The translations under genes were made by a program, and so were the position numbers. From NCBI GenBank assembly GCA_963965975.1, contig OZ014420.1, positions 1,452,001-1,516,000 on the forward strand: a stretch of DNA of 64,000 nucleotides, given 5' to 3'. The notes below the pieces were generated by a model that did not search any database, had not been told where the DNA came from, and worked only from the letters and a program-made list of their open reading frames with translations. The DNA comes from Xestospongia bergquistia (lineage: Eukaryota; Porifera; Demospongiae; Haplosclerida; Petrosiidae). Of the stretch, positions 2,150 to 38,039 are shown piece after piece; positions within the stretch are counted from its first letter, which is position 1; each line of letters starts with the position of its first letter.

Positions 2150-3100
2150 GTACCTAATGAACCAGTCGAAAATCAATGAAAACACTCCATACCATATGAT
2201 GATCCTTTTTTGATCTTAAATTTCCTATATAGCTGCCAATTCTTTAAATGACATTATACCACTAATTGTTTATTTGACTCAAACACTTCAAACTTAGCAT
2301 CAATGTTTATTTTAATGGAAGATCTTCATTAGTTGCAATAGTATGTTTGAGGAAGCCAACTAGTTTGCTAAAGAGCTGAAGACTAAACTTCAAGGTGATG
2401 ACATTGATCAAGCCTTTATATTTCAATATGTAAAAGACAATCCTACTGATCATGTAGATGGTTGTGAATTTTTTGTTGCTGAATCACATGAAAGTATTTT
2501 GATTCTGACATGTGCCATAAAGAGATTATTGATGCTCATGATACATCTACAAAAAGAGTCTTCCCAAATATCTTTTTAAAGATTGCAAACCTAATTATAG
2601 AGAGGCCAATATGCTCATGCTATATATACACATGATTGTCAAGCAATTCTAGTAAATTATATAACCTTTAAAACTACAAGTGTGGAGGATCCACAATATG
2701 GTGATCTTCTAAGATCAATTAAACAAAAAGCTGTTGGTAAGTCTCCACTAGTAAGAACTAACACTGTGACTTTCAATTATTATTTGTAGGAAGTCAAGGT
2801 GGTAAAGATGCATACGTGTACAGGAAAAGTGTATCAACTGGTAACAATAGAATATTTGGCCTGACCCTTTGAGGTATTTTTGAGTCTTGAAATCAGTAGA
2901 GCTAATTGAATATTTGCTGTAGATGTTGAAAACTAAACATAGGATTACTGCATACATGCAACCAAATCTCGAAATTTCTACATATAATTAGCACAATTCA
3001 CGAGTGTCCAACACAAAGTAATAAAGCAATCGACTATTGCAGAATGTGCTCCTTTAAGGGAGTTTGATTCACTTTCAATGGTCTGTCTGTGATTTATGAT
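2150..3100 (+). pseudogene. Decayed coding segment of an unrecognised gene (unit 0 copy)
   Basis: The block aligns with 49385-50300, and partly with 43320-43690 and 23680-23960. A stretch at about 2630-2737 reads as an uninterrupted exon-like frame (VEDPQYGDLLRSIKQKAVG) ending at a GTAAGT donor. Further on, around 2800-2900, lies the counterpart of the frame at 23667-23864 (GKLYQLATTEHLGLPF), here broken. Different copies carry different frame breaks, which suggests unrelated decay rather than selection. The family is not recognised. It sits immediately upstream of the conserved promoter, so it may be the 3' end of a former neighbouring gene. Confidence 0.4.
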
Positions 3101-3179
3101 GCTTCTTAGATTGTTGATACTAAAACAAGTCTGAAGATGTTGCTATTAAGCAGTCATTCTTGAATGCCAAGGTACCCTC

Positions 3180-3400
3180 CTTTTAGCAGGGGAGGGGCTA
3201 GCGCTGGCTACATGTGATTAGTTGTTACGCTTAGCTTTGTGATTGGCCATACTATTTACACGTCATTATTAAGTTGTTCTTGGCCAGACTCACTTTTTCC
3301 TAGGGCTGTAGTGACCTGAGGGCAATAGTATACCATCTCCCTTGTGTAATTTGGCTGTATATTTTGCTAGCTGGACTTTGTTCCTGGTGTTCCATATTTG
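3180..3400 (+). promoter_or_regulatory. Conserved promoter and non-coding exon 1 of gene 1
   Basis: Three copies occur, here, at 24035-24252 and at 50435-50644, and they are better conserved than their surroundings. All carry, in order, a GC-box-like GGGAGGGGCT (about 3190), an inverted CCAAT box ATTGG (3242-3246) and a CRE-like ACGTCA (3260-3265). They then share a pyrimidine-rich stretch and an exon-like segment ending ATATTTG before a GTAAGT donor at 3401. No ATG-led frame is preserved, so exon 1 is read as 5' UTR. Position, orientation and one copy per gene argue for a shared promoter; the transcription start is not defined by sequence alone. Confidence 0.6.
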
Positions 3401-5146
3401 GTAAGTCGATACATTAATTTCACATTAAAATATGGCTTTTTTCTATCAAGACTCTAGCCACAGCATTTACATAATCATGAATACTAGCAGTATTTAACAA
3501 TTAGTTTGTATCTTAATCATAGACCTTTTTTAAATATTGTGTGTTAACGTGGTAATAACTGAAATCTGTTGGGTTTTGCCTTGAAGTGAGTCATGTGATT
3601 ATAAGAAATAACCACATCTCCATAATAGCTGTACACAACTAGCATCATGTAGTAATACATATGCTTAGTTATAATTTGTATATGTAATAGAATGAGTATA
3701 ATTAGAGATAAATTACAGGAGTGTTGTCTTTTAAATAATTAAAACTTCTTGAGGCTAAGCTAATCACTTTAAGAAACCGTAAATTATCCTGAATTTATTT
3801 GACTGTATTCTATTACCAATTTATCCTCCACTTTGACAAATTGTTGTTTTAAGAGAAGACAGCTTGTCCACAAAGTGGAGGCCATAGTCACTATTGAACT
3901 ATTCTTATCTTTACACTCACTATTAAATATTACGAGAAAACTATTTGTTCACTATAGTATTGAAACTAGATTATAATTAAACAAGTCATCCTATGATGAT
4001 TTTAGAAGACACTATAACTTCATACTGAAACATTGACTAGAACTATAATGATTGCATAATTAGAAGCAGTGCCTGTTAAAGACTATAGTTATGAATCATA
4101 CAAATATAGGTATAGGAGCAAGCTAGTGAGATCATTTGAACATTAGCAGTCACAATCATTATCATAGCACTTGTACATGTGGTTAGTGTTAATTAAAATC
4201 ATGGGCTGTCATTAGTTAATGATGAGGTTTAATTTCTTTTGTTGCTCTTTAAAGTCACACACAATAATATTTTAAAAATGTGAAGGTGGACATATATACA
4301 TATCACATAGTCTGAAACAATCGTATTTTTTACAGTTGATCAAAACAATATGAAGACAAGAGGCTAAGTTCTGATATGCTTTTCTCATGTTGGATGGTTA
4401 TTATAACTGAAAAAAATTTATCTGTTGGAGAAAATGGTGAAAGAATGCTTTAAAAATGCCAATGATATTTTGATACTATTAAAGCAACTACATAAGACTG
4501 ATAATATTAAAATTAACTTTGTAGTAAGCAATATATAGCAATGTTAGTGTAAAGAATCAGTCTGTAAAGTCAAAAGTAAAGATAATGCAAACATTGTAAA
4601 TGTATCATAATAAAAACAATTTTAAAATCCTTGTTTTGTAACTGGTAACTCAAAACCAAAAGAAAATAGTAGCTAACCATTTTTGGAAAAAAAATTGAAA
4701 CAGTGTTGTTTTATAAAATTAGACATCTACTTTACAAATTATATTTTAGACAAAACTATTGATTTCTACATTATGACACATCTTCTAATGATAATAAATT
4801 TATTTCAGACAAAATTTAGAAACCGATGTAATGTAGTGATTGTGTGTATAATAATACAATAACAATAATGTAAATAAGATAACTCACAATACTAATGTCA
4901 TAGATGTCCTTTTTATTGGTTTAATATAATACCATTCCTATATATGTCTATTTTAGATGAACCTTTCTAAATGAATACAGACAATACTAGGAACAAATAA
5001 TTACAAAAGATATAGGATTCTTATAATCTTTCCTATTATTGTATTTTTACATGACATTACTGTTCTTTGACTAGTTTCTAGTCTTTGCTCTATAAATTTC
5101 CTCTATTATTATAACAACTGTTCTTATAACTTTTATCATTATATAG
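3401..5146 (+). repeat. Intron 1 of gene 1 (paralogous to introns at 24253-27167 and 50645-60677)
   Basis: It begins GTAAGT and ends in a TATATAG acceptor. It aligns over most of its length with the other two intron 1 copies, which differ by insertions: about 1.2 kb at 24260-25440 in unit 1, and a Tc1/hAT nest plus a Gypsy fossil in unit 2. No separate gene is seen in it. Confidence 0.55.
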
Positions 5147-5421: not shown

Positions 5422-8400
5422 CTTTAATATACTGTGATCATATTCTGACGACTTCTTACACTGTATCACTTTTTTATTTACTATGATCATATTATCTTGA
5501 CATCTAAAACTATATCTCACTTATCTAGCGTGTAAGTTCGAACACACATTAGTATTATGTATTGTTTAATTGTGTGTTCATTTTAAATTATTGTTTATCT
5601 CTCTTTTATTTACTATGATCATATTGATGACATATAAAACTATTTCCCACCTATTTAGTCTGTAAGTATGATCACACATTAGTATTATGTATTGTTTCAT
5701 TGTGTATTCCTTTTAAATTATTATTTATCTCTCTTTTATTTACTATGATCATATTATGATGACATCTAAAACTATATCTCACTTATCTAGCATGTAAGTT
5801 CAAGCAAACATTAGTGTTATGTATTGTTTCGTTGTGTATTCATTTTTAATTATTGTTTATCTCTCTTTTATTTACTATGATCATATTGATGACATCTAAA
5901 ACTATATCTCACTTATCTAGCCTGTAAGTTCAAGCAAACATTAGTGTTATGTATTGTTTAATTGTATATTCCTTTAAATTATTGTTTATCTCACTTTTAT
6001 TTACTATGATCATATTGATGACATCTAAAACTATTTCCTACCTATTTAGTCTGTAAGTATGATCTCACATTAATATTATGTATTGTTTAATTGTGTATTC
6101 CTTTTAAATTATTGTTTATTTATCTTTTATTTACTTTGATCATATTATGATGACATCTAAAACTATTTCCCACCTATTTAGTCTGTAAGTGTGATTACAC
6201 ATTAGTATTATGTATTGTTTAATTGTGTATTCATTTTAAATTTTCGTTTATCTCTCTTTAATTTATTATAATCATATTATAATGACATCTAAAACTATAT
6301 CTCACTTATCTAGCATGTGAAGTTCAAACAAACATTAGTGTTATGTATTGTTTAGTTGTGTATTCATTTTAAATTATTGTTTATCTCTCTTTTATTTACT
6401 ATGATCATATTATGATGACATCTAAAACTATATCTCACTTATCTAGCCTGTAAGTTCAAACAAACATTAGTGTTATGTATTGTTTAATTGTGTATTCCTT
6501 TAAATCATTGTTTATTTATCTTTTATTTACTATGGTCATATTATGATGACATCCGAAACTATCTCACCAATATAGATTGTAAGTGTGATCATACATTAGT
6601 GTTATGCATTGTTTAATTGTGTGTTCATTTTAAATTATTATTTATCTCTCTTTTATTTACTATGATCATATTGATGACATCTCAAAACTATATCTGACTT
6701 ATCTAGCGTGTAAGTTCAAACAAACATTAGTGTTATGTATTGTTTAATTGTGTGTTCATTTTAAATCATTGTTTATCTCTCTTTTATTTACGATGATCAT
6801 ATTATAATGACATCTAAAACTATATCTCACTTATCTAGCCTGTAAGTTCAAACAAACATTAGTGTTATGTATTGTTTAATTGTGTATTCCTTTAAATCAT
6901 TGTTTATTTATCTTTTATTTACTATGATCATATTATGATGACATCACAAACTATCCCACCTATTTAGATTGTAAGTTTGATCATACATTAGTGTTATGTA
7001 TTGTTTAATTGTGCATTCATTTTAAATTATTTTTTATCTCTCTTTTTTTTATGATGATCTTATTATGATGACATCTAAAACTATATCTGACTTATCTAGC
7101 GTGTAAGTTCAAACAAACATTAGTGTTATGTATTGTTTAATTGTGTATTCCTTTAAATCATTGTTTATTTATCTTTTATTTACTATGATCATATTATGAT
7201 GACATCACAAACTATCCCACCTATTTAGATTGTAAGTGTGAACATACATTAGTGTTTTGTATTGTTTAATTATGTGTTCATTTTAAATCATTGTTTATCT
7301 CTCTTTTATTTACGATGATCATATTATGATGACATCTAAAACTATATCTCACTTATCTAGCCTGTAAGTTCAAACAAACATTAGTGTTATGTATTGTTTA
7401 ATTGTGTATTCCTTTAAATCATTGTTTATTTGTTTTTTATTTACTATGGTCATATTATGATGACATCCGAAACTATCCCACCTATTTAGATTGTAAGTAT
7501 GATCATACATTAGTGTTATGCATTGTTTAATTGTTTATTCATTTTAAATTATTATTTATCTCTCTTTTATTTACTATGATCATATTGATGACATCTCAAA
7601 ACTATATCTGACTTATCTAGCGTGTAAGTTCAAACAAACATTAGTGTTATGTATTGTTTAATTGTGTGTTCATTTTAAATCATTGTTTATCTCTCTTTTA
7701 TACACTATGATCCTATTATGATGACATCTAAAACTATATCTCACTTATCTAGCCTGTAAGTTCAAACAAACATTAGTGTTAATGTATTGTTTAATTGTGT
7801 ATTCCTTTAAATCATTGTTTATTTATCTTTTATTTACTATGATCATATTATGATGACATCACAAACTATCCCACCAATATAGATTGTAAGTGTGATCATA
7901 CATTATTGTTATGTATTGTTTAATTGTGTGTTCATTTTAAATCATTGTTTATCTCTCTTTTATTTACGATGATCATATTATGATGACATCTAAAACTATA
8001 TCTGACTTATCTAGCGTGTAAGTTCAAACAAACATTAGTGTTATGTATTGTTTAATTGTTTATTCATTTTAAATTATTATTTATCTCTCTTTTATTTACT
8101 ATGATCATATTGATGACATCTAAAACTATTTCCTACTTATTTAGTCTGTAAGTATGATCACACATTAATATTATGTATTGTTTAATTGTGCATTTATTTT
8201 AAATTATTGTTTATCTCTCTTTTATTTACTATGATCATATTATGATGACATCTAAAACTATATCTCACTTATCTAGTCTGTAAGTTTGAAGAAACATTAG
8301 TGTTATGTATTGTTTAATTATGTATTCCTTTAAATCATTGTTTATTTATCTTTTATTTACTATGGTCATATTATGATGACATCCGAAACTATCCCACCAA

Positions 8401-9038
8401 TTTAGATTGTAAGTGTGATCATACATTATTGTTATGCATTGTTTAATTGTTTATTCATTTTAAATTATTATTTATCTCTCTTTTATTTACTATGATCATA
8501 TTGATGACATCTCAAAACTATATCTGACTTATCTAGCGTGTAAGTACAAACAAACATTAGTGTTATGTATTGTTTAATTGTTTGTTCATTTTAAATCATT
8601 GTTTATCTCTCTTTTATTTACTATGATCATATTATGATGACGTCTCAAAACTATATGTCACTTATCTAGCGTGTAAGTTCAAACAAACATTAGTGTTATG
8701 TATTCTTTAATTGCATGTTCATTTTTAATCCTTTTTCTCTCTTTTATTTACTATGATCATATTATGATGACATCTAAAACTATATCTCACTTATCTAGCC
8801 TGTAAGTTTGAACAAACATTATTATTATGTACTGTTTAATTGTGTTTTCATTTTTAATCCTTTTCTCTCTTATTTACTATGATCATACTATGATGACATC
8901 CCAAAACTATATCTCACTTTAGCATGTAAGTTCAAACAAACATTAGTATTATGTATTGTTTAATTGTGTAGTCATTTTAAATCATTGTTTATCTCTCTTT
9001 TATTTGCTATGATCATATTATGATGACATCTAAAACTA
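5422..9038. repeat. 132 bp satellite array 1, about 27 monomers
   Basis: The monomer contains TATGATCATATTATGATGA, then CATCTAAAACTATATCTCAC, TTATCTAG, three variable bases, GTAAGT, ACATTAGTGTTATG and TTTAATTGTGT. The period measured between ATGATC marks is 132 bp in clean stretches. Monomer types alternate: one with TCACTTATCTAG, one with CCACCTATTTAG, one with ATCCGAAACTAT. A seven-monomer higher-order repeat of about 915 bp is visible from the rare TATGGTCATA variant at 6531, 7445 and 8361. The array lies in the long intron between the leader exon and the gene 1 body. Confidence 0.9.
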
Positions 9039-9609: not shown

Positions 9610-9840
9610 CAATGAGTATGATTACATATTAGTATTATGTAATGTTTAATTGTGTATTCATTTTAAATTATTGTTTATCTCTCTTTTATTTACTATGATC
9701 ATATTGATGACATCTAAAACTATTTTCCGCCTATTTAGTATGTAAGTATGATCACACATTAGTATTATGTATTGTTTAATTGTGTATTCATTTTAAATTA
9801 TTGTTTATATCTCTTTCACTGTTACATTGTATCCCTCTTA
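9610..9840. repeat. End of satellite array 1
   Basis: Nearly two further 132 bp monomers continue after the foreign segment. They degenerate at about 9840 into sequence paralogous with 37540 onward, the start of the body half of each unit. Confidence 0.8.
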
Positions 9841-10059
9841 TTTAGCCTGTAAATATAAATACATTATGTATTGTTATACATGGTAGACAGTTCATGCACA
9901 ATTTTTTATATATGTAACTTGGTGTGTTGGTTTTCAACACTTTTTAAATCAACTTTCGAGAGTGATGAATGAAGTAAACCTGTATATAGTATTCACTAAC
10001 TGCTCACATATACCATTACTTTTACTGGAAGCACTTTGAATTGGGCATAATTGATCAAG

Positions 10060-10640
10060 CTTCTGTGTATATTGTTCAGTTGCTCTTGCTCCTATACTGA
10101 CTGTTTTATCACACCCAAGGCTAAGTAAGGCCTTGGTAAATTTTGCTGGCTCTCTCTATAATTTGCATTTCAATGGACAGAAATTTAATATACCTTTAAG
10201 AAAAATATGTGTAAGGGGATGAAGGAGACAGACCAGAACAAGTTATGCTGTCTAACGTTCTCATGAAACACCAATCTACACCTCCAACTGTAGCTCTATA
10301 TAGGTTAATGTTGGCAATACATAATTGGTTACTAAATTCACTGAAACCAAATGTGTCTACTCAAGTAGGTAATAAGCAGCAGTTTGAGTGACTATTATGA
10401 AAATACCTCACTGGGTTGAAGGTACTGTTATTAAGAAATTAGAAGTTTCTGAGAAAATTGCTGATGGTCAAGTATGGAGTAGAACAATTGGATGATATCT
10501 GTGCTGACCAAGTGGATGAGAACAAGCAACTAACAAATTCTATTATTTATTGAAAATTGAATATAGCGCTTTCTCTCTCAGAACCAATTATTGTTGTATT
10601 CAATGAACTTGTAGACCTCATAACCAACATATCAAAATAC
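10060..10640 (+). mobile_element. Ty3/Gypsy pol fossil, unit 1 copy
   Basis: Translated pieces recall the C-terminal part of a Ty3/Gypsy integrase, for example IPHWVEGTVIKKLEVSEK. The same fossil, more complete, lies at 38040-39230 in unit 2 at the equivalent place, so the insertion is older than the unit duplication. It is badly broken and no LTRs are recognised. Confidence 0.5.
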
Positions 10641-10948
10641 AGATACCTCAATAATATTGTGTTCTTATGATTGTATGTGGGCATGTTGTTTTGTGCATGT
10701 TCAATTGATTGCACGACCTCATTGTGGTTGTGTACCCTGTGTTATTAGTAATCTTGGTAATCCATATTAAGATGAACCTTATTGCTTTTCTTTGTTTCCA
10801 ATTTGATTAGATGTAGTGAAACATTCAATATTGGTTCTATTTAAACAAATTTATGATTGATGATAATTGTGATTTTCATTATACTTATAAATTGTATTAA
10901 CTTGTATTGTGTTTTTTGAAATACCTATCTCTTCTTTCCATTTTATAG

Positions 10949-13900
10949 GCTAAAAGAGTCCATGCTGTGGAAGGTAAGGCTCTTTAGTAATTGGATATTA
11001 ATTTTTGCTAGTTATTTATTAACCCTCACCATTCTCAGTGTGGGCAAGAATTATAGCAACTGTTGCGTGTTGCTCTAAGTCAGCAACTACAAAGTCTACA
11101 CCCACGAATTTGACAGGGAAACTGTAAAATATTCAGCACTATGTATTTGTTCTAGCTAAGTGAATGCCAAAGGCATAGAAAGCTTAAAAGTCATAAAAAT
11201 CTTTTAAAAACACAGGCAGGATGGAAGAGTTAATCACTTCAATGTTACAATTATGACATTGTTGCTTTTTTTATTTTATGAAACTTTACTCTTGGTTTGT
11301 TTTCCCTTAAAATAAATGAATATTAATTATACTTTTATAGATGTTGCTTACAGAAAAGCTCTAGCTGAAGGAGAGATGGATGTAGCATATTCCAGACTTG
11401 TGTTTCTAGGAGCAGCTGGTGTTGGAAAGACAAGTTTCAAACGATCACTCATGAAAAAACCTTGGAACCCTAACATTAACAGCACCATTGTCTCTGATGT
11501 CCATTCTCTGCAACCAATTGGACGAGAGTGGCAATCACTAGGTCGTGAAGATGAGGAGAAATGGAGAGAAGTCACAGAAGAAGATGAGCTGAATGAGATG
11601 GCAGAATTATTGGCTGCTGTACATCAAAACAGAACTAGCTTAAATGAGTTTAGTAGCAAAGTAATTGCTGCTACCAAGTTGTTTCCAGATTCTCGTATGC
11701 TAAAGACCTCTTCAATTTCAGAAGAAAAGATTGAAGAATTTGAGAAATCTCATGTTCAATCTCTTCTCTCTGAAGCTATTGTTCGTGCTAATTCTATACC
11801 CATGAGTTCAGCAAGAATTATTAAACTACAACCATTTCTTCATGTTTGGGATTGTGGAGGTCAGCCTATTTTTCTAGAAATTCTCCCAGCCTTCCTTACG
11901 TCACGTACTATGTTCCTTCTCTTATATGATGCCTCTAAGAGTTTTAAGGAAAAGTGGCAGTCTGTACAAACAGTAGAAGGAGAGAGAAGGTTTGAAGAAG
12001 AAGTTAACATTACCACAATTGATTTCCTTCTTAATTGGCTGTCCAATATTCATATTCATCTTGCAAAATATGTTGAAAAGAGAGCACTCTTAAATTATCC
12101 TCGTGTACTATGCATTGGTACACATGGTGACAAGCTGAAAGCTATGGGTCAAACATATGACCAAAAGATACAAGAAATTGAGTCATATTGCAAAGGAAAA
12201 CCATTTGAAGTTCTTATTGATGGTTTTCACATTGTTGATAATACCACTGCTGGGAGTGATGAAGGTGAAGATATCAATATCTCTAAAGTACGAGGTGCAA
12301 TACATGATTTCACCTACAATAAGCTCATTGTCAAAACACCAATTAGCTGGGTACTCTTTCGTAAAGTCATTCAAGCTCTCAAAGCAAATGTTATTAGTCT
12401 TAAAGAAGCTCATGCTATTGGTATAGCATGCAAAATACCCAGTGATGTTGTTCCCAAAGTACTCCTTTTTTACCATGACTTAGGAGTGCTCTTGTTCTAT
12501 CCTCATATTGGTGGTCTAGAAAATGTTGTCATTCTCAGTCCCAAATGGTTTGTGGATGCTCTTGGTAAGGTTTTAACTTTAAAAGGAAGAGAAGACCATA
12601 AAACACGACTTATGTGGGATCTATTACGCAACAAAGGAATCCTTGTCCAACCTCTCTATGTAGCTGCCTGGAGAGAAGTTGAAGGTCTTGATCCAGAGTC
12701 TTTGATTAACTTATTGGTTTGTTTTCGCCTTGCTGCTGAAGTGAAGACAGATCAATTTTATGATCCCAGTGTAAAGCAATACTTCTTACCATTAGTATTG
12801 CCTTCAGTCAAGGAAGCATCAATTTCACTAGAGTACCGTCAAAGAGCTACTCCATTACATCTCACATTTAGAACTGAGTTTGTGCCACCAGGTTTTTTTA
12901 CTCGTTTTATAACGACAATTGCGGGATCACCATTATGTGAGATCAACTTTGATAAAGGTGTATATCGCAATCAAATAAAGATTGAATTTGGAGATCCACC
13001 AATTGATAAAGTAATTTTAAGTGAGCTACCTCATGCTATTCAAATTGATATCCGTCGATATGCACCTGAAAGTGATGGTCTTGACAAGTTTACTCTTATC
13101 TGCCAAGAATTGTGTAGTTTAGTTAAGGAAGCGGCAAAAGAAGTTGACAAATGTCTATTTACCTGTGATGATATTGTTGACAATAATAAGTCTGGCAAAG
13201 TGTTCAAAGAAGTTCAATTTTTATGTGCTGCACATGAGTGTCAGTCTACTTCAGGTTGTCATTATTTAAAGCACAAGAAAGACCAGACCTGTGACCTATA
13301 TCTACATTGCGAAAACAATGATGAGTATCGTGAAGTTTTACCTGAAGAAGGCCTCTGGTTTCCTGACAAGAGCACAGAATTGAAGGTAAGTATTATTTGT
13401 ATATACATAAACATTTAATATTTTCATGATTATTGAAAGCAACCACATTGCAGGAAAAAGAGATGCTACATATTAGCAAAAAGATTCCAAACCAAGAAAA
13501 ATTATATCAGCTAGCTGCATGTTTGGAAATGACACAAAATTTAAACTACATTCTTCAAGATCCTTTTAAACAGAAACGAGCTGGCTTTGAACTATTGTAT
13601 GAGTGGGTAAATAATAAAGGAGGTGTACGTGATGAAATGGTAGAAGTTCTACAAGAAATAGACCTACCACACCTTGCTAACATGTAAGATGTTTTGTTAT
13701 ATAAAACAATAGTGTTTTATATCTAATTAAGGGTAAAGGAAGCTGAGTATGATCCTGAGAAGTTAGGCAAAAAAGGTTTGCATGAAGAAGGGGTTTGGCT
13801 TTCTGAGAAGAGACTTACATCAAATGTATGTGTATTTTTAAATAAATGTTGCTATATCATTCATATAATTACAGCAAACCAAGACATTGCAGCAAAAAGA

Positions 13901-15688
13901 GATGTTACTTATTAGTCAAAAGATTCCCAGCCCAGAGAAACTAAATGAGCTTGCTGCCTACTTGGAATTAACATCAAGACTCAACAACATTTTGCGAGAC
14001 CCTACTAAAAGTGAGCTAGCTGGCGTCCATCTATTATATGAGTGGGTAAAATATAAAGATGGAACACGTGATGAACTAGTGGAGGCTTTAAGAGATATAG
14101 ATCTACCTCAACTTGCTGTTCTGTAAGCCAAAATTATTTCCTTTTTGTAAACAACAATTATTTTATTTTTTAGGGTAGAGGTAGCTGAGTATGATTCTGA
14201 GAAGTTAGACAAAAATGTTTTGCATGAAGAAGGGCTTTGGTTTTCTGAGAAGAGACTTACATCAAAGGTATGTGTATTTATAAATAAATATTGCTATATC
14301 ATTCATATAATTACAGCAAACTAAGACATTGCAGCAAAAAGAGATGTTACTTATTAGTAAAAAGATTCCCAGCCAAAAGAAGTTAAAAGAGCTTGCTGCA
14401 TGCTTAGAAATGACACAAAATTTAAGCTATATTCTTCAAGATCCTTCTAAACAGAAACGAGCTGGCTTTGAACTATTGTATGAGTGGGTAAATAATAAAG
14501 GAGGTGTACGTGATGAAATGGTAGAAGTTCTACAAGAAATAGACCTACCACACCTTGCTAACATGTAAGATGTTTTGTTATATAAAACAATAGTGTTTTA
14601 TATCTAATTAAGGGTAAAGGAAGCTAAGTATGATCCTGAGAAGTTAGGCAAAAAAGGTTTGCATGAAGAAGGGGTTTGGCTTTCTGAGAAGAGACTTACA
14701 TCAAAGGTATGTGTATTTTTAAATAAATGTTGCTATATCATTCATATAATTACAGCAAACTAAGACATTGCAGCAAAGAGAGATGTTACATATTAGTCAA
14801 AAGATTCCCAGCCCAGAGAAACTAAGTGAGCTTGCTGCCCACTTGGAATTGACATCAAATCTCAACAACATTTTGCGAGACCCTACTGAAAGTGAACTAG
14901 CTGGCTTCAATCTATTGTATGAGTGGGTAAAATATAAAGATGGAACACGTGATGAACTAGTGGAGGCTTTAAGAGATATAGATCTACCTCAACTTGCTGT
15001 CATGTAAGGCAAATTATTTTCTTTTTATAAACAACAATTATTTTATTTTTTTTAGGGTAGAGGTAGCTGAATATGATTCTGAGAAATTAAAAAGCAAACA
15101 AAAGTCAAAACAGGTAAGCATTCAAAGTTATTGTTAACTCTGCTTTTTTAGTACTTACTTTTCAAAGACCTCATCAACAAGTCTTGTCAACACTTCACAA
15201 CCAGCCAAGTCACAGTCTTCACAAAAAGAGGTTCAAATAAATCAACAGTAAGAAAGCATGTAGTAATATATTTAAGTGCATATCTATCTATGTGTATTCA
15301 GGACAAGTATACAAAATGGTGGAAGTCTACCTAATGAATCAGTAAACAACACAGAAAATCAGGTTAGCCTTAGTAATGAAACATCACATGATTGATTACA
15401 GTAACATTTATATATTAAAACAGGCTTTAATGTCCATTGCCAGATTCCAGCCAAATTTATCTCAAACTCCACATACAATCACTCCTTTGATGTCAGCTTT
15501 GCCTCTGAAATCTGATGGTGATTTTTTACAATATGGTCATCGCATTCATAAAAATGTCTCAACCCTTACTTGTCCTTTGAATCCTACATCAACAGTTCTT
15601 TTACAAAATCCACAACCATCTGTTGAAGAAATGGCAGCAGTGAGTGACCAAACTAAGAAAATCGACAGCCATTCAATAACTAATTTAA
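10949..15688 (+). CDS. Gene 1, 5' part: Roc-COR GTPase with four tandem Death domains
   Basis: Exons inferred from phase-matched GT-AG sites: 10949-10973, 11341-13385, 13454-13683, 13732-13825, 13875-14122, 14174-14267, 14317-14564, 14613-14706, 14756-15003, 15056-15113, 15168-15247, 15302-15362 and 15424-15688. With the 12-codon leader numbered first, the P-loop GAAGVGKT lies at residues 44-51, switch II WDCGGQ at about 190-195 and the base-specificity motif THGD at 281-284, as in Roc GTPases. A COR-like domain follows (SWVLFRKVIQALK; LLFYHDLGVLLFYP), then a Cys/His-rich stretch and EEGLWF. Four Death-domain exons follow (LLYEWV; DELVEALRDIDLPQLA), joined by 31-residue linker exons. The last exon holds only the start of another Death-domain type (SDGDFLQYGHRIHKN) before unrelated sequence. 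An ATG at 11316 lies in the intron, so it is not the start. The family is a cytosolic GTPase-scaffold type in innate immune or death signalling by inference. Confidence 0.8.
13432..15113 (+). repeat. Four tandem Death-domain exon modules, ~440 bp period
   Basis: Each module is a Death-domain exon of about 248 bases plus a linker exon of 94 bases (58 in the last), with short introns of 46-51 bases. Starts recur at 13875, 14317 and 14756. Modules 1 and 3 are almost identical, including introns, as are modules 2 and 4. So the present array looks like a recent in-frame duplication of an ~880 bp two-module block. All exons keep the same phases (0 to 2, then 2 to 0), so modules can be gained or lost without breaking the frame. 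Confidence 0.85.
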
Positions 15689-16469
15689 GTAAGACAACCA
15701 TGTGTTATCATTTTTTCTTTTTAATTCACAAAAACCACCTGCAGCTATGTTAAAACTGGATATAAAAGCCTGTTTTAATATAAATTCCAACATAAAATTA
15801 CCATAAACAAAATGGTGCCATTATTATTAAAGCTATTATCCCAACAGATTTCCTGTCACAGCTGCTATGTGCACTCATATAGATAAAGGAGGGAAGGTGA
15901 TTAGAACAAAATTGACCAATTGTGACTTGGATCAGATACTAAAAAGTTTAGTTATAAATGTCAAGAGAATAGTGTTAACAGTGTCAGCTAGAGAGTGTAC
16001 CTACTGATTTTAGAAAACCTTTTTCATGCCAGAGATACCAAGCATCTATTAAAAAGCTTGCATAACTTCATTGAAATGGTAGCAATAAACAAAGTGTTCA
16101 CAAGACATGTAAGACAAGAATGAAATCAGCACAGTCCATACTAATAGTGTATATATGTGCAATTTACTTCTGTTTTGAATCCCACTTACCTCTGTTATTG
16201 ATTGTGTGCTTCACTAAGGCATACACCAGTTTTTATGATGGAGTATACATTTTTGATCATAAAACCTTACCATTGTCCCGAATAGATTTTAAGACAATAT
16301 AATTGCAAGATAATTCCCATTAAAAAGGCTTATTCCTAACTTGCATTTGCTTTAGGGCCCATATAGATAATGTATTATTTTCTCTGTGATGCAACAAAAT
16401 ATTTGGTCTTGCATACCTGTGGTTTTGGGCTTCAGAAAAACAATGTCATCTTCTTTAGTGTGATAAAAC

Positions 16470-16502
<33 letters not shown>

Positions 16503-17106
16503 GGAAACTTTGATGACATTTTGTCGAGATTAGTTAATTTTTGATCCCAGCATAAAGCAATACTTCCTACCTTTAGTATTGTCTTCATTCAAATATCACC
16601 AGTTTCACCAGGATACTGTCAAATAGCTACCCCTTTGCATCTCACATTTAGTCTTGACTTTGTGTCATCATTTTATACTTGTCTTATTAAAACAAGCGCA
16701 GAGTCACCATTATGTGAGATGAGCTTCAATAAAAGTATATATCATAATGAAATAAATATTGAATTTGGAGTTCCACCAATTGATGAATTGACCATTGCAT
16801 TGGAGGATAACCTAGTCTATGATGTCCATTTAGTCTTGCTTTTAAACCTTGATGAGTACAATGTCCTCTCTATAATAATAATAATAATAATTAATAAGGA
16901 CAAGCCCAAGTATGGTTGCATATACCAATAGTTCTTTCCTTCCAGCAATAATAGCTTTTATAATAGTTACAACTTCTTCATGTTTGTATGCTAAATAATT
17001 GAAATGAGTATACGTATCTGTTTCTATCAATGTGTCCATTTTATATCTATTGGTCCATCAATTGCTTTTGATTTCTGGTCTTAATTTTTTGTTTCTAATT
17101 TAATAG
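15689..17106 (+). other. 1.4 kb intron joining the Roc half to the ZU5 half of gene 1
   Basis: It starts GTAAGA and ends TTTAATAG. The upstream exon ends in phase 1 and the downstream exon starts in phase 1, which fits one transcript. The reading frame would run on to a stop at 15749-15751 if the donor were not used, so two separate genes remain possible. The intron holds a decayed COR fragment and a CA/TA microsatellite (about 16469-16501). Confidence 0.5.
16537..16800 (+). pseudogene. Decayed COR-exon fragment inside the gene 1 intron
   Basis: The sequence aligns with about 12755-13010 of gene 1 and 41400-41650 of gene 2 (recognisable pieces: PLHLTF, SPLCEM, IEFGVPPIDEL). It carries frame breaks and has no flanking splice signals of its own. 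It is the remnant of another Roc-COR paralogue, and it shows that a second gene copy once lay between the two halves of gene 1. Confidence 0.75.
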
Positions 17107-20100
17107 CTTCTGATAAAATGAAAGATCAAGAGGTGATAACATTAAATGAAACTGCTGAACTGACTTTACAACAAAGAGAAAGGAAAGAATTGACTAGTCG
17201 ACATTTTACAGGTATGACATAGATAATATTTTATCTAATGTAATCTTTTTACTTACATGCCTATTTGTATACTTTGTAATCATTAATTTATAGCATTATG
17301 ATCACTTAGCTATTGTAGTACCTCTGATAATAAATCATAATGTTATTGAAGAACTTCATGGAAAGCAAATATGATAAGATTTTATAATCATTATCTCATA
17401 GGCTCACAGCAAACAAGTAAGGTGAAAGATGTGTCCACCAATGTCACTAAGACACCAAATAACAGTGAGTAAAAGACTTTTATACGTTCTATAAAACTTT
17501 ACTCATTTGTTATTAAAGTGTGATGCCATACTATATACTAAGTTGTATATAATTGCAATAGCCTCATTGATAAAACATTATGATGATACTAATAATCAGT
17601 TAATGAATGGCACTACAAATATTTGAAATTATGAGTAAATGTTTTTGTAGAGACTACACAGAAGACTCTAGAAGCAGAGAGAAAAATAAGCAAAGTCAAA
17701 ACAATTGAAATAGAGAAACTGAAAGGTATAGAAGAGTTTTCTAGCCTAAACTATTTACATATGAAGCAATTTTACACATAACAACCTTTGCTAATTTATA
17801 GATACTGAGAAAGAATTACGTTCTAAATTAAGAGAAAAAGATCAACAGATAGAGATACTAAAGGAAAGAGTGACAACAAAAGACAAGATTATTGAACAGG
17901 GTATGTACCAGTTTACTATAAGTAATCATTAACCCAGTAATAGAGTACACATACATGTAATTAATTATTAATTGCAAAGACAAAGTTAACTTTATTATTA
18001 TTTGTTTTTTATTAGACCTGATTGCATATGCCATCACAATTAATTACTTTCTTATATATATTTTTGGACAGAATCATTTGAAGCTGCAAGGAAAAGTGTG
18101 AGCACACAAACAGAATCAATGAATCTGTCGGTAAATAAACAGGATGTTTCTGTGCAATTTAATTATCTCATCCCATCAAATGGTACTGCTATTTTATAGT
18201 TGATCCTCTTTAAAGTGAGTCCGCTTTATAGATACTCTCAAAGGTGTGTGTATTGGAGGGGAGGAGATGTTCCTAATTCAAGGAGAATCTCCTCAGTTCT
18301 TCAACTGGGAAAAATATGGATTGAAAATTACTGCTCCTGAAGGGACTTTGTCTCCAACAGATACCAGTGAAGTTGTTGTGAGAGCTCTGGTTGGTGGACA
18401 GTTTCAATTACCTGAAAACACAGAATTAATTAGTGTTGTCTATGCGGTATCTGTCTCCAAACCACTACTCAAGCAAGTTAAATTAGAGATACAACACTGT
18501 GCAGATCTAGTCACTCAAGATCATACCAGTTATCTGAGTTTTGCTACAGCTTGTATTACTACTAGACTCCCTTATCAGTTCCAGCTTGAAGAAGGAGGAC
18601 AATTCCACCCTGGTAATCAGTATGGCAGTATCTGTCTTTCGCATTTCTCTTTTAAGGCTATTATCAAATTTATCAAGAGATTGCTGGGATATCCTGCAAA
18701 CAGTGGATCATCTTCTGATGATGAATCACTCTATGTAGATGCTCCTGAACCACCTACTCAAGATTATGGGAGTGGAGTCAGTCTAGCAAAAGGTATGCTA
18801 AATAAAAAAAATTGCTGCTTCACATATTTTCTCATTATAGACAATTCATCAGTAATGAATTCTTGTATCAGAGCCATAGACAGAACAAAATTATTGACAT
18901 CCTCTTCATCAACTGATGATAAGCTCAACTCTATAGATGTGTCTACATTTAGTTTAGAGCATAGTCCACAAATTCCTCACTCAGCAACTCTACCTAGTGA
19001 ACAATCACAGATAAAAAGTAAACTACCTATTTAATAATATTCTTGCATATATTCCTCTATAGATGTGTCTCTTGTTAACAAGTCATTTCCTGATAACAAG
19101 TATGTAGCTCAGACAGTATATGAGGTTAAATGTCATGGTACTAAATGGTTGATGCACTTTATGGTTGCTAAATGCCTCAATGCTTTGCTAGAGGTAAGTA
19201 AAACATTAATAGAGTTGTGTTATATAATACAATATGTGTATAGTATATGAAGAAGTCTCTTCCATCTGATGTTGACAAAGATATTTGCTTATCTTTCACA
19301 TTTGAAGATGATTACATTGAATTAAATCTGAATGGAGAACAAGATCATCCATTTAATGGATGGAATATTGATCCTCACCTAGACCCAGTGGTATATGGGA
19401 CACTGTAGATTTGCATGTGTGGATGGATAATTTTTACAGGTATTATATAAAAGTGATGTGGATATGTTTGGTTCTGAAGATCCTCCATTTTGTGCTTCTA
19501 TACTGATCACAGTGTCTGCTAAACATTATCCTGATACAGTGGCTGGAATAAAATATTGTGTGCCATTAAAAGGAATTAAACCTCATAACATGAAGATAAA
19601 TATTATACGATCTCTTGGTGATAATAGTAATAGTAAGTATTGATGCACATTATGATATTTATTCATAATGTTCTTTTTAAGGAGTGTCAAGTACAGCATC
19701 AACTACAGCTTATGAAAGTGTATCTACTACTGGAGATTTAGGTATGATATTGTATATAGTATAATGTTGATATTAACCCCTGTCATTTTGATATTTATAT
19801 ATGATCTTTAGAACATGAAGTAGTTGTGCATAGTGACCCGCCTGTAATTATGATCAATAAAGATGCTGATCATTTTCATTGTTCCATTCTATTATGTCTC
19901 TATACACTATAGATGGTGTTCTGAATACTGAATGGGCCAGAAGGGCTTTAGTTCGATGTACTGATATCATTATTGAATCAACTATTGATCCCTTTGTTCT
20001 GGCAAGGAAAGTCTATTCAAAAGAAATCATTCCTGAAGATGTTTATAAAAGAGTGAGAGACAACCAAACTAGAGATTCAAAGGAGACACGCCTGGAAGAG

Positions 20101-20226
20101 ATTCTTGATTGTCTGAAAAGTCGTATTGAGCATAACGCTAATATTTTAAAGATTTTCGTGGATATTTTGAGACAATTAAGTCAAAATGACTTAGCTGATA
20201 ATATTGTAGCAAAATATAAAGGCTAG
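17107..20226 (+). CDS. Gene 1, 3' part: coiled coil, ZU5, UPA-like, CARD
   Basis: Phase-matched exons: 17107-17211, 17402-17464, 17651-17725, 17802-17900, 18072-18182, 18232-18792, 18841-19017, 19063-19193, 19244-19390, 19440-19632, 19682-19741, probably 19812-19832, and 19913-20226 with stop TAG. The first five encode charged heptad-rich coiled coil (LREKDQQIEILKERV). Exon 18232-18792 is a ZU5 domain (YGLKITAPEGTLSPTD) ending in CLSHFSFKA, with HFS at 18642-18650. The next exons fit a UPA-like domain (VYEVKCHGTKW; CVPLKGI). The last encodes a six-helix CARD-like domain (DPFVLARKVYSKEIIPEDVY). ZU5-UPA followed by a Death-fold domain is the layout of PIDD1, UNC5, NLRP1 and CARD8. If separate from the 5' part, the start could be ATG 17118. 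A 37-base intron in the 3' UTR (20243-20279) and ATTAAA at about 20416 are possible. Confidence 0.8.
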
Positions 20227-21319
20227 TGTAAAATATATCTTAGTAAGTGTTAATAATTAATCTTTACTTTCTGTTTCAGAATTAGCAGAATGCTAGAGAC
20301 ATATAGTACATGGATGTTTTCTTAAAGAAGATATCTTTAACAAAATGTAGTAATATGGAAAATTAATTCACATAGTAGTATGTTAATTATAATCATGATG
20401 TGACTAATATAAACTATTAAAATTGTTCTTTGATTAGTCTTTCTTTGCTGCTCCATTTTTTCACTACCTTTTTCTTATTATTTGTAACAATTAAGTTTCC
20501 TTCTCTTATTGAAACCATCCAACACACAAGAAAAGCATATCATTTAGTCTTATATAATAATACCCAAGCATTATATTCATCCATCAAAAATTCACCGCGT
20601 TTATAAAACTTGACCAATCAAATTGTTTCATTTAAGTTTATTAAATCACCATGACACCTGTTTTGAGATGTCCTATTGATTTATTTGCACTCTATAGTAA
20701 CTGCTACTCAGGTGATGATTCATAACTTATTTTGATCTTTTGGAACAGGTATCTGACAATACTATTGTTATTATTAGTTTTATTTCACAATTTAAGTAGA
20801 AAAAAATATAGCAAAAACTTCTTTAATATCACAGTTGTAACAAGGCAATTACAATTCAATACTTAACACACTGAAGGCTTTTTTTTGTCAGTCAGTCATT
20901 TCATTCAATTCGACCATAAGGACATTTGACCTATGTGATGAGGTGCAAATTCTGTAGTTATTATCTACTAAAAAGAAAACAGAAAAAGCTCTAAAACATG
21001 AAGAAAGACTTCTTGTCTGTCATAGTATATGCAGATACTATAGAAGTATACATATGCAGTAGTTTAAGCTAGTAACATAACTTGATTACAGTTTACTTAT
21101 TAGGAAAAAATAGGTATAGTCCTCTAGCAATATTTTTTACGAGTTTCCTTATTGGCAGAATTAATAAATGCATATAGACTTCTTAATCATGTCAGCTCAT
21201 TCAATGCTATGAAATTTTGTGAATTCATGGGCCTCAAATATACGTGTAATTTGTTTATGTCTTTTCTCTTAATCATATCAGATATTATAAATATATACAA
21301 CTTATGTAGTCATTATTAA
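20227..21319. other. Gene 1 3' flank
   Basis: Apart from the possible 3' UTR signals of gene 1, nothing gene-like is seen on either strand in this AT-rich stretch. Confidence 0.5.
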
Positions 21320-21415
21320 ACATTCCTTTTTCTCTCTTCTATTTACTATGATCATATTATGATGCATTCTACACTGTTTCCCACTTACTCAGTCTGTCAT
21401 GTGATAGTAACATTT
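21320..21415. repeat. Solitary, diverged satellite monomer
   Basis: A single part-monomer (TTTACTATGATCATATTATG, CCCACTTACTCAG) lies outside any array, just upstream of the orphan Death-domain exon. It may be a founder-like or dispersed copy. Confidence 0.75.
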
Positions 21416-21423
21416 TTCATAGG

Positions 21424-21850
21424 CTTCAATATCAATTGTGAGATTGCAACAAAATTTATCCCCAAGTCTGTCCACAATCACTCCTCTGACACCACCTGTG
21501 GCTTTGATATCTGATATCTGATGATGATCTTTTACGAAGTAGTCGTTATATTTGTAGAAATGTCTCCACCCTTGCTGGTCCTTTGGGTATCTCTATTGCA
21601 AGTCTTCAGGAAATTAAATGCAACTATAAAGATATGGAGACACAAGCTTACTGGGTAATGAAGAAGTGGCAGGAAGCTCACCCGAATACACGTCATCAAG
21701 ATTTTTATAACAAGTTGAAAATTTTAGGATTTGACAATGCTGCTGAAAGGTATCATTTTTCTGACATGTTTAGAATGTATTATTATTTCTTTCAATAGTT
21801 TGACAAATCCTGAGATTCCACCACCAAGTAATAATTGCTGTGATTGAAAC
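21424..21850 (+). pseudogene. Orphan terminal Death-domain exons beyond the gene 1 stop
   Basis: After an acceptor CATAG the sequence aligns with the penultimate exon of gene 2 (42492-42847): VETQAYWVLKKWQ there, METQAYWVMKKWQ here. A final exon near 21798 recalls gene 2's 42897-42954. A small duplication of TGATATC early in the exon shifts the frame. The rest stays open as a 71-codon frame (21583-21798). No transcript in the window would obviously join it, so it is called a relic of the ancestral Roc-COR-Death gene end. Inclusion as an alternative 3' exon of gene 1 is not excluded. Confidence 0.65.
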
Positions 21851-23660
21851 TATTTTGCTTTGAAAAAGTAATATTTTCTGAAGTATGTAATTGTTAATTG
21901 TTTCAAAATATTATAATTTTCAAACCACTTTGTTATTTTGCTTTGTCAGATTACAAATTAAGTTTGATTTTTTTTGTAATGATTTGTTGAGTTACAATAA
22001 AAAATATTAATCATAGACTTATAATATTTCATTGGTTTTAAACAGTGATCTGGTCAGACTTACAGTGGTCATAGGCATAATAATCATAAGTTGAATGTGA
22101 TCTTCTGTGTTTGACTCTAATTGTACTTGAATATAAATATGTTTTTTTAAAAATTAATTTTAATATTTCTTAACATTGCATACATACCCATTGGCATCTT
22201 ATTATTTTAGCTTGTATATGCTAAGACTATTTTAATGGAAGATAGTGACTACAGTGTTGTGATAAACCACAATATTGTAATATGAAACTGATAAGTTCAG
22301 GTTTAGATCTTGTAATATAGGTAATTCGTTGGTATAGTATAATATAGATATCATATCTATATATATAGCCTTTAACATTGTCACTTGTATATAGCTAAGG
22401 AAATAGCTCACAGTTACAAGGTACATAGATTTATTACATTAGAAATTTCCCCACACCTTGATTAAATTGTCTCTAATTATGAGAAAGTCCATTTGTTAAA
22501 TTACTAACTATTGATTGCACTCTATAATATATACCATCATTGTAGATGACAAGTGTCCTGTTAAACATGCAGTTCAAACATTGAACTATACTTCTTAATG
22601 TCTTACTGGTATAAATAAAAAATAAGTAAATGTGATGACTTCATTACTGTTTTAAACCAGGTTCTAAAATATGTCATTAAGAGAATGCTTATATACAAAA
22701 AATGGTCTATATAATTGTTCAAATTATCTTTAATGATATCAATATTAAACTTAAGAATGATGATATGGTAAGAGTGCATCCTTCAGTAATAACCACCAGT
22801 CAAACAACTTTATACTTTTATCTGGAAAAATTGTAGATACTGTATAGCCAAATTAATGATAAATACATACATAGTTTATTTCAAATCAGTCTCTGTTAAT
22901 TGCTTCAACTCTATTATTAAATATCTTACTCCGTATGACAATAACAATATTACATGTACAGAAGAGCTAAAATATTGACTCTAAGTCAAAATTCTGATGA
23001 CCAATTGAATAGGATGTCGTAAAATACTTAAGAAGGTTCTCATTATGTTCAATGATAATAGTTTATAAGTACATTGATTTTCCAACCAGATGTTGCAGTG
23101 CTATTTCATCATTCATATGTTTAATATCAAGTATATATATGGTGTCCACTGGATTTCCAGCCTACTGACAACATTTATGATCGCTAATATTGTTCATGCT
23201 TTTAATATGAGCAAAAGCTTTTGAATACAAGTTGTTTCTGAAATTATAATTTAAACTTTATAATAATTTATAAGTTTATATAATTTTTAGACCTATGGTC
23301 TAAGGATCAGATCAAATACCTATTCACTTATTGGCACTCTACACACTTACTTTAAAACAATTAAACCATGCAAATTGACACATCTAAGTTCCAAAGTTTA
23401 ATCTTTAGGGTATGGGATATAGTATTAGATTCTCTTAGAGTACAGTACCAGTACTCTTGACAGTGCTTTATTTTATAGATTACATTGAGTACTTCAAATT
23501 CTAAATTAACAGAATGTACAAGGATCTATATACATAGCTGTAAATTTATGTGTGCATGTATGTGTATGTATTGCACCTTTATGATTTTAATGAACTATAA
23601 AAGAGAATTTCTAGTAGGTGTGGTACAGGCCTTTGTCATCATGCATGCATATGACTTAAT
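21851..23660. other. AT-rich spacer without recognised genes
   Basis: Short open frames here have no recognisable family or splice context. Around 23100-23170 a short block resembles 45400-45450 of unit 2, in keeping with the unit duplication. Confidence 0.45.
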
Positions 23661-28082: not shown

Positions 28083-30034
28083 TTCTTCACAAAATGAAAT
28101 GTTGCCAAATACAAGTCAATGCCATAGTTGGTTGAGGGAGAAAGTACTTGAACTGTTTCCTCTAGTTCAGAGTAATCATTTTCATTCAGAGGACATTCTA
28201 TAGCAGGAACAATAATTTCATTGGGAGTACTCAGATCATCTTTGGTTGATAATGAACCATCCCAGTCAACTCCATAGAGTCGTGCCTCCTCCTGTTGAAA
28301 GAAACAAGACTAGTCAAGTGCATATAGACATCTGTTAAGGCACAATATGTAATAGATAATGTACTGTTACTGTAATGTACTGAATGGGTTGTATGGCATG
28401 AGGGGTGTGGTCAAGAGACTGATACAGCATGAGGCAAAGCCAATTCCTGTATCAGTCTCAAGACCACAAACCGAGTGCCATATAACCCATATAGCACTGT
28501 AACAGTACATTATCTGGTTTATTGTTGTTACTTGAGCTAATCTTTCATTTCTTGTCAGCTTTACTGTTTAACGTCATTTGTTGCTATGCGTTACTAAGCA
28601 TGAGCCAATGAAATTCAAAGAGGCAAAGAAAAAGAAAAATTGGAAAGTGTGGAAAGAAAGAGAAACCCGAGCAAGAAAGGAAGATATAACCATCATGAAG
28701 CATTCCTTAGAAAACGATCAATAATCTCAATGAAAAGTAATGCTACAATCATATCAAACTTGCAATATCAGTCATATTGAACGCTTCCTGCTTTATGGGA
28801 AATATAGAATAGGCGGTGTCTTTCATCCACCCACACAAGTAACAACAAATACATATCTATATATATATTTTCATATTTATGGTCATATATATAAACAAAA
28901 TACCTCTGTTAGCTCATCAGGTGGAGGTTGTCTACATAGTCCACTTATCTAAAGCTGCATTGGATTAAGATACTCTTCAGATGAAAGAGGATGATTGTTC
29001 CAAGCATCCTGAAAGAGACGTAGTGCTGAGTTCATTTGTTGTATATACACATAAAGGAGACAAATGAAATGTACTTCATCATCAATATCCAATATGCCCT
29101 GATCCTCCATGTAGTAAAACAGTTGGTAGAAAAGAATAGTACATTGCAGAAATACATCACGCCAGAGCCTCTCAATTCTTTGGTTGTGGACACTGCGTCC
29201 AGTAATGAAGCTACCTCGGCCTGGTCCTCTGAGGGGATGTTGAAGTATGAACACTGCAATGCGTACATTTTCACCACCTCTATCTGAACGTACTCTACTT
29301 GGCAGTGCAGTGGCTCTTACTTGGTCAACAAACAGTTGTAGGACAGTTTCTGTTCAATTATTGTCAGCGCAATGTAGATATATTATTCTACAACTGAATC
29401 CATCAATACATCTATGAATGACAAACCTCCATCTGTAAATTAAATAGAAAATGATCTATTATGATATAAATGTGATAGCTGTAACTGATCAACTAAATAA
29501 TAACTTCAGCTGATCAATTTATGATTGCCATCAATGTGATACAGAGACCTTGGTGCTGCCACTCTGTATTCTCGTCTACAAAGACATCTCAATTGATGCA
29601 TCATTGTTCCTTCAGGACAGATTCTTCTTTGGGAGTCTCTGATTCTCCACTGTTGTATTCTAAATCCTTTTGATAATTCATTTGATGGTATCCACACATG
29701 GGGAATGGTCATAAATGCTTTTTATCAGTCTGTCTAAGTCATTGTCTGTTAGTTCTGAATACTAGCTGGGAGCGAGTAGAAAGACCATACTGGGACAGTC
29801 TTCTGTGAAGAGTTCTCACAGACACCCCAAGCATCTCTGACATTTGGGGGGCAGTGAGGTGATTCTCAACGAGATATAACAATTGCTGTCGTGGAATAAC
29901 AAATCTAGGTCAGCCAATGAGTCCATTGCACTCAACTGGGGGTGAATATTGCTCTGTATTTTCTGAAGCACAATCCCTGACGTTCTTAAGCATGTCCAGG
30001 GCAAATCTGATAAAGTTGAGTCCTGACTATTCAT
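28083..30034 (-). pseudogene. rve-type transposase/integrase-like gene, broken
   Basis: Minus-strand pieces, in order: a helix-turn-helix (SEMLGVSVRTLHRRLSQYGL) near 29830, LYHIDGNHKL near 29530, and [15 protein letters not shown] near 29170. A C-terminal exon (EARLYGVDWDGSL) ends near 28083. These match the widespread metazoan 'integrase core domain' transposase type, where DGNHK holds the first acidic residue. The last exon is preceded by a proper TTTCTTTCAACAG acceptor. The copy has several breaks and is not expected to be active. Confidence 0.65.
28354..28515. repeat. 162 bp near-palindrome inside the transposon
   Basis: The outer arms, 28354-28370 and 28499-28515, are perfect inverted repeats (AGATAATGTACTGTTAC). 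Inner arms at 28386-28398/28478-28490 and 28406-28427/28447-28468 are nearly perfect. It looks like a foldback MITE within the transposase intron. Confidence 0.75.
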
Positions 30035-35700: not shown

Positions 35701-35843
35701 TTGTTTAATTGTTTTTTAATTTTAAATCATTGTTTATCTCTCTTTTATTTACTATGATCTTATTATGATGACATCTAAAACTATATCTCACTTATCTAGC
35801 CTGTAAGTTTGAATAGACATTAGTGTTATGTATTGTTTAATTG
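32780..35843. repeat. 132 bp satellite array 2, about 23 monomers
   Basis: This is the most homogeneous array. ATGATC marks at 32843, 32975 and 33107 give a 132 bp period. Most monomers carry CACTTATCTAG-NNN-GTAAGTTTGAAC. It lies in the long intron between the gene 2 leader and body. Confidence 0.92.
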
Positions 35844-37955: not shown

Positions 37956-38039
37956 CTTTTACTGGGAGCACTTTGATTTGGGTGTAATTGATCAAGCTTC
38001 TGTGTATATTGTTCTACTTGGTACAGGAATGTAACTGAT

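Follow-up and report, generated by a model that had tools for sequence, protein, structure and literature searches.

The 64,000-nucleotide stretch of contig OZ014420.1 from the sponge Xestospongia bergquistia (hereafter the window) carries, on the + strand between 10949 and 20226, two sets of exons. The first encodes a Roco protein, that is, a Roc-COR GTPase followed by Death-type domains, and the second encodes a protein with a probable ZU5 domain and a CARD-like C-terminus. The original prediction had read both sets as a single chain of about 1,960 amino acids (aa) joining Roc-COR, four Death domains, ZU5-UPA and CARD. This single chain is not established, as the intron that would join the halves contains a COR relic, a paralogue of the first half ends without a ZU5-CARD part and a broken Death exon is found past the second half. 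The reading we prefer, and consider probable, is that of two genes arranged head to tail within a tandem array that is decaying; the weights given here to this and to the alternative readings were set by judgement.

The exons themselves are real in both halves. They were rebuilt as 13 + 13 (10949-15688 and 17107-20226; Table 1), with GT at 25 of 25 donors, AG at 26 of 26 acceptors, phases that are consistent throughout and, in the joined product of 1,948 aa, a sole stop at 20224-20226, which confirms the number and phase of the predicted exons. Splice sites were scored leave-one-out, with 386 GTs and 360 AGs as background. The one exon that had been flagged as uncertain is exon 25, the donor of which scores -1.44 and which can be skipped with the frame left intact; the donor of exon 18 is also weak (-1.36). 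A Pfam profile search (24,736 models, family cut-offs applied), proposed with the original prediction, was run on the joined protein as well as on single exons and fragments. It places Roc (E 6.9e-10), COR-A (3.6e-13) and Death (3e-10, in two stretches) above the cut-offs on the joined protein, but ZU5 and CARD below them, and does not recover UPA. Both halves look like parts of cell-death or immune signalling systems, and from the sequence we infer GTP switching, self-cleavage, a CARD output, a role in immunity or cell death, and separate transcripts.

The segment between the two halves

Two genes are favoured because paralogue B ends without a ZU5-CARD part, the joining intron is an outlier in length, its acceptor is weak, COR and Death relics lie within this intron and beyond the second half, and an in-frame ATG is found at 17118, 11 bases into exon 14. 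At 1,418 bases, the joining intron is about four times as long as the next longest (367), the other 24 introns measuring 45-367 bases. The COR relic in it is frame-broken, with a shift of the reading frame between 16540-16593 and 16587-16799, and in the terminal Death relic at 21421-21831 the frame is altered by a short tandem duplication; the second half thus sits amid the remains of a further copy. Near the join, matches from the self-comparison of the window were considered if one end fell within 15400-22000 and the other did not lie in a satellite. The acceptor at 17107 scores 1.88 leave-one-out, or 5.68 if it is itself included in the model, against background AGs with a median of about 0 and a 90th percentile of 5.1. 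Paralogue B lies 28 kb downstream, and no second ZU5-CARD part accompanies it: by tblastn (E<=10), the second-half protein (684 aa) has no match in any other part of the window. In addition, a 1.4-kb gap between genes would be ordinary if the present genome is like the compact one of Amphimedon, for which the available part of PMC4773876 gives a median intergenic distance of 587 bp, a mean intron of ~326 bp and a head-to-tail arrangement in 57% of gene-to-gene regions.

Several observations weigh against two genes and in favour of one fused gene of ~1,950 aa, in which gene 1 would have lost its terminal Death domain and exon 13 would splice into the ZU5-CARD gene, so that a GTPase and four Death-type domains would control a self-cleaving CARD module. 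The phases agree across 15688/17107 (chance 1 in 3), and over all 25 introns phase is consistent with no internal stop. The donor at 15688 scores 6.33 leave-one-out, above the 95th percentile of the background GTs (5.97). The codon content of exon 13 is coding-like as far as 15688 (+0.091 per codon) but no longer beyond this point (-0.266 per codon), which suggests that this donor is used; of 3,069 non-coding 109-base frames 247 are open, and the score of the exon 13 tail is reached by 4 of the open ones, a count that comes from overlapping windows and is not a probability. Exon 13 diverges from the terminal Death exon of the family at ~15579, so that gene 1, which is without the rest of this domain, ends unlike paralogue B. 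Finally, after the stop at 15751-15753 the first poly(A)-like word is ATTAAA at 15826, and the first AATAAA follows only at 16084. The evidence for the 15688/17107 join consists of phase, splice sites and exon 13 codon content; the join is nevertheless not established, and the length of the intron with the relic inside it, the weak acceptor and the paralogue without ZU5-CARD all argue against one gene. So does the outcome of contig scans, which covered viruses, bacteria and archaea only, gave pattern matches but no tblastn relatives of the single parts, and say little about sponges. We therefore hold the fused gene to be a possible but clearly less probable alternative. The one-chain form would, equally tentatively, be a GTP-controlled inflammasome-like receptor, in which a CARD fragment cut at an HF|S motif (see below) stays bound to the GTPase part as long as the latter is present.

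The Roco half and its relatives

The predicted Roc-COR GTPase is well supported. Roc domains carry a P-loop, a DxxG and an [NT]xxD-type motif, and exon 2 has GAAGVGKT, DCGGQ and THGDK at residues 23, 170 and 260 of its translation, with a Pfam Roc match of 1.4e-11 for the fragment alone. COR follows directly after Roc, with COR-A at residues 342-478. No match to COR-B, LRR or ankyrin repeats or a kinase is listed for the joined protein in the Pfam search, the 5' end of the gene being open, and NACHT stays below the cut-off on the Roc fragment (E 0.073). The stretch from the P-loop to DCGGQ (11433-11849) spans ~140 residues, a spacing that is shorter in the usual small GTPases; it is common to both Roco copies, and three residues shorter in B. 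Exon 2 is 88% identical between the copy in the first half (A) and B, with a dN of 0.055, a dS of 0.157 and hence a dN/dS of ~0.35 over 678 codons, a substitution pattern which shows that this exon is, or was until recently, under constraint (purifying selection) in both copies.

Upstream, the predicted leader exon at 10949-10973 holds in part: it is in frame and kept in the paralogue, but it is without an in-frame start codon and an in-frame stop lies just upstream. To look for an earlier coding exon, ATG frames that run into a fair donor were sought in 9820-10945. One stretch with three nested starts, ending at 10364, came up and was rejected; B has none at 37960-39603. The 5' flanks of the two copies (10086-10948 and 38663-39606) agree at 786 of 848 aligned bases (92.7%), more than intron 1 does (81%), which may reflect a conserved promoter or conversion.

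Downstream of COR, four tandem Death-type repeats, each with a linker exon, follow one another with a period of ~440 bases and a mutual identity of 62-90%. The four Death domains of the original prediction stand as four related repeats, two of which carry the Death match of the joined protein; alone, only repeats 2 and 4 resemble the Death profile, both just below the cut-off. Repeats 1 and 3 singly have no Death match at E<=1 and are assigned to the Death domains through their 62-67% identity to repeats 2 and 4. As the pairs 1/3 and 2/4 are each 90% identical, a two-domain block appears to have been duplicated; its two copies, 13335-14207 and 14217-15089, lie in tandem and are 91% identical. 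Paralogue B has a single repeat, which alone gives no Death match. The tandem duplication of the block suggests that the number of repeats changes quickly in this family. Sub-threshold matches to MACPF_D2 in repeat 1 (13454-13683, 0.022) and in the repeat of B (42087-42335, 0.028) were taken as chance.

The end of gene 1 can be compared with three relatives of the terminal Death exon, referred to as R (21.4 kb), B (42.5 kb, Pfam Death 5.5e-7) and D (48.8 kb). A profile built from them matches the head of exon 13 with an nhmmer E of 2.2e-19, and as this likeness stops at ~15579, most of the terminal Death domain is gone from gene 1. With the same profile, the tail of exon 13 gives a marginal 0.033. 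Its collinear alignment to R, B and D is matched by 12, 81 and 49 of 400 shuffles, and its local alignment by 30, 32 and 18 of 500. Gene 1 could itself be degrading, with its terminal Death exon frame-shifted, the exon 13 tail being junk in the new frame and only the ZU5-CARD gene fully functional. The broken state of the sister copies, and what may be a remnant of that Death exon in a different frame past 15579, speak for this reading, which we regard as very improbable: the collinear trace is weak, its score being equalled by 4, 25 and 10 of 55 other genomic segments (R, B and D), exon 2 (2,045 bases) and the four repeat exons are open, the dN/dS of exon 2 against B has the value given above, and the repeat pair was duplicated yet stayed open. 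An origin of the tail from the ZU5 gene, making exon 13 a chimaera, was dropped, closer alignments having left the marginal collinear Death-exon trace in another frame.

Broken pieces of further copies are found at 16536-16787 (COR), 21421-21831 (terminal Death), 45684-46345, 46742-46941 and 48691-49221. The last three belong to a stretch, 45684-49221, that holds a further Roco copy in pieces: a COR end and a Death-type exon with stops, followed by relatives of exons 11-12 and of the terminal Death exon. Outside the Roco exons, 2150-3406 and 49393-50650 form an 88% identical pair, one member of which lies just downstream of a Roco relic; no Pfam match at E<=0.01 was obtained for the open reading frame (ORF) 2364-2576. 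Satellite DNA forms large arrays, built on a unit of ~132 bases or multiples of it, at 5464-9038, 32778-35843, 36225-37149 and 61439-63999, and single satellite pieces lie beside the Roco loci (9615-9816, 37418-37553) as well as beside the broken Death exon (21302-21414). Mobile-element pieces at 53459-53935, 31351-31611, 28952-29353 and 56649-57122 comprise hAT dimerisation regions (4.8e-21, 1.2e-12), an integrase core (8.9e-48) and a reverse-transcriptase RNase H-like domain (1.2e-13). In the ORF scan, 5 of 10 had a Pfam match at E<=0.01, the fifth being a sub-threshold BED zinc finger.

The probable ZU5 and CARD-like half

The second half likely contains a ZU5 domain and a CARD-like fold. 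Pfam ZU5 matches exon 19 with an E of 0.081 (13.7 bits, cut-off 21) and covers 16-90 of the 97 profile positions, whereas the matches of the last exon are CARD_2 (0.0014; 19 bits, cut-off 28.2), RhoGAP (0.016), CARD (0.036) and Death (0.13), all below the cut-off. As ZU5 and CARD had been named before the search, the chance for a single model is E/24,736, which is ~3e-6 and 6e-8, and both predicted domains are plausible, though sub-threshold. Against the PDB, the ZU5 exon has four matches (E 0.28-1.2), none of them a ZU5 protein by name, and a single-sequence AlphaFold prediction gave no usable model (predicted local distance difference test score, pLDDT, 34.4). The model of the CARD exon is all-helical with low confidence (pLDDT 56.7), and of its four weak fold matches (E 6.0-9.5) three are MAVS CARD entries, a hint only.

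The predicted UPA domain was not recovered. Exons 21-23 match 0 Pfam families at a limit of E 10 (at which the HMMER filters discard most matches above 0.1), with or without the Ser-rich linker. Their best local match to the UPA of UNC5B was reached by 309, 197 and 110 of 1,000 shuffles under three matrices and is not significant, and the PDB gave two matches only, at E 0.4. LRR and NACHT have no Pfam match in the second half.

The ZU5 exon also holds YGSICLSHFSFKAI, within which His-Phe-Ser is located at the end of ZU5, a site that is absent from the features listed in the original prediction. In PIDD, self-cleavage takes place at HF|S immediately behind each ZU5, and in CARD8 and NLRP1 at SF|S (PMC3210808, as excerpted); self-cleavage of the second-half protein is predicted from the likeness of its HF|S to the PIDD site. 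In rat NLRP1, the ZU5 part blocks the release of the UPA-CARD fragment (PMC8081665, in excerpt), and the analogy suggests that the second-half protein is self-cleaving and CARD-releasing. Two points weigh against this: the ZU5 match is sub-threshold, and cleavage of NLRP1 and CARD8 needs a second histidine (H1186 of NLRP1, H270 of CARD8; excerpts of PMC8081665 and PMC3210808), a counterpart of which was not located, no alignment being good enough.

With two genes, the preferred reading, gene 1 (~10949 to 15.75 kb) would produce a Roco protein in which Roc would bind GTP and COR would couple Roc to dimerisation. The switch would then expose or cluster the four Death-type domains, leading to the recruitment of other Death-fold partners. 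Gene 2 (~17.1 to 20.2 kb) would encode a coil-like stretch, ZU5 with HF|S, perhaps a UPA-like domain and the C-terminal CARD-like domain. Its product would probably be cut between Phe and Ser with the halves staying together, until disturbance or removal of the N-terminal part releases a CARD fragment that would polymerise, as in NLRP1 and CARD8.

Table 1. Positions in the window of the exons, motif, paralogue and relics discussed in the text
Feature	Position	Strand	Basis or remark
Exon 1	10949-10973	+	AKRVHAVE-, 5' end open; splice sites and frame; 21/25 bases identical to paralogue B 39607-39631
Exon 2, Roc GTPase and COR	11341-13385	+	Pfam Roc 6.9e-10, COR-A 3.6e-13; dN/dS against paralogue B; motif spacing
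Death-type repeat 1 exon	13454-13683	+	Likeness to the other three; no Death match alone at E<=1
Linker after repeat 1	13732-13825	+	GT-AG, phase, repeat unit
Death-type repeat 2 exon	13875-14122	+	Pfam Death 4.5e-4 alone, just under cut-off
Linker after repeat 2	14174-14267	+	GT-AG, phase, repeat unit
Death-type repeat 3 exon	14317-14564	+	90% identical to repeat 1, 67% to repeat 2; no Death match alone
Linker after repeat 3	14613-14706	+	GT-AG, phase, repeat unit
Death-type repeat 4 exon	14756-15003	+	Pfam Death 5.1e-4 alone, just under cut-off; 90% identical to repeat 2
Linker after repeat 4	15056-15113	+	Splice sites, phase
Exon 11, Ser/Gln-rich	15168-15247	+	Similar DNA at 46742-46941
Exon 12	15302-15362	+	Similar DNA at 46742-46941 and 48691-48871
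Exon 13	15424-15688	+	Head (to ~15579) related to the terminal Death exon of the family; tail unrelated, or its decayed frame-shifted remainder
Joining intron (original prediction) or intergenic gap	15689-17106	+	1,418 bases; other 24 introns 45-367
Decayed COR fragment of another copy	16536-16787	+	DNA identity 82.1% to 41395-41651 (B), 79.4% to 12754-13010 (A)
Exon 14	17107-17211	+	In-frame ATG 17118; splice sites, codon content
Exon 15, linker	17402-17464	+	Splice sites, phase
Exon 16, Lys/Glu-rich	17651-17725	+	Coil-like by eye
Exon 17, Lys/Glu-rich	17802-17900	+	Coil-like by eye
Exon 18, linker	18072-18182	+	Weak donor, -1.36
Exon 19, probable ZU5	18232-18792	+	Pfam ZU5 E 0.081, sub-threshold
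His-Phe-Ser codons, predicted HF|S self-cleavage site	18642-18650	+	Motif likeness to PIDD and Nup98 (PMC3210808, excerpt)
Exon 20, Ser-rich linker	18841-19017	+	Splice sites, codon content
Exons 21-23, perhaps UPA-like domain	19063-19632 (19063-19193, 19244-19390, 19440-19632)	+	No Pfam match
Exon 24, linker	19682-19741	+	Splice sites, phase
Exon 25, doubtful	19812-19832	+	Donor -1.44
Exon 26, CARD-like domain and stop	19913-20226	+	Sub-threshold CARD_2 and CARD; weak all-helical model
Broken terminal Death exon, beyond second half	21421-21831	+	76% identical to 42609-42924; Pfam Death 2.5e-5 in one frame
Paralogue B	39607-42954	+	Roc-COR with a single Death-type repeat and linker, then the terminal Death exon and a short last exon carrying the stop; ZU5-CARD part absent

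Comparison with known systems

The original prediction had treated Roc-COR proteins and ZU5-UPA-Death-fold proteins as separate families in vertebrates, a separation that is less strict than this because human DAPK1 and NG3 of sea anemones both join Roc-COR to Death. DAPK1 is a Roco protein composed of a kinase, ankyrin repeats, Roc-COR and Death; the order of Roc-COR and then a Death domain is shared, whereas its kinase and ankyrin repeats have no match in the joined protein (the 5' end being open), which instead has four tandem Death-type domains after COR. NG3 combines a kinase, Roc-COR, Death and TIR in one gene, according to the available part of PMC5094078, and resembles the first half as an invertebrate Roc-COR joined to Death; its kinase and TIR have no match here, where the Death-type domains are multiplied instead.

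The second half resembles PIDD1, CARD8 and NLRP1, in which ZU5 with HF|S (PIDD) or SF|S (CARD8, NLRP1) precedes a C-terminal Death-fold domain (PMC3210808, PMC8081665, both in excerpt). It differs from them in that UPA is not demonstrated, a linker of ~100 residues separates HF|S from the next domain, the N-terminus is coil-like and neither LRR nor NACHT is matched. Lineage-specific shuffled architectures are a further likeness: sponges and cnidarians have proteins with rearranged ZU5, Death, TRADD-N and NACHT domains, including NACHT-Zu5 proteins and UPA-ZU5 modules predicted to be self-cleaving, and the legend of a sponge NLR architecture figure includes a COR domain (excerpts of PMC8195603, PMC12909245 and PMC8260672). 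In contrast to these, neither TRADD-N nor NACHT rises above the cut-off here, and Roc-COR with ZU5-CARD is not described for them in those excerpts. Within the open-access literature, represented by excerpts and in which absence is weak evidence, no report of Roc-COR joined with ZU5-CARD was found.

If the two halves form one chain, the protein would place the cut-and-release of NLRP1 and CARD8 under the control of a GTPase in what is probably an early-branching animal, with implications for the way in which inflammasome-like devices first came together. If, as we prefer, there are two genes, the locus would be a tandem Roco-Death array, in which the number and type of Death domains change, beside a probable self-cleaving ZU5-CARD protein. 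Roc-COR with Death, and ZU5 with CARD or Death and self-cutting, are each already known from the proteins compared above.

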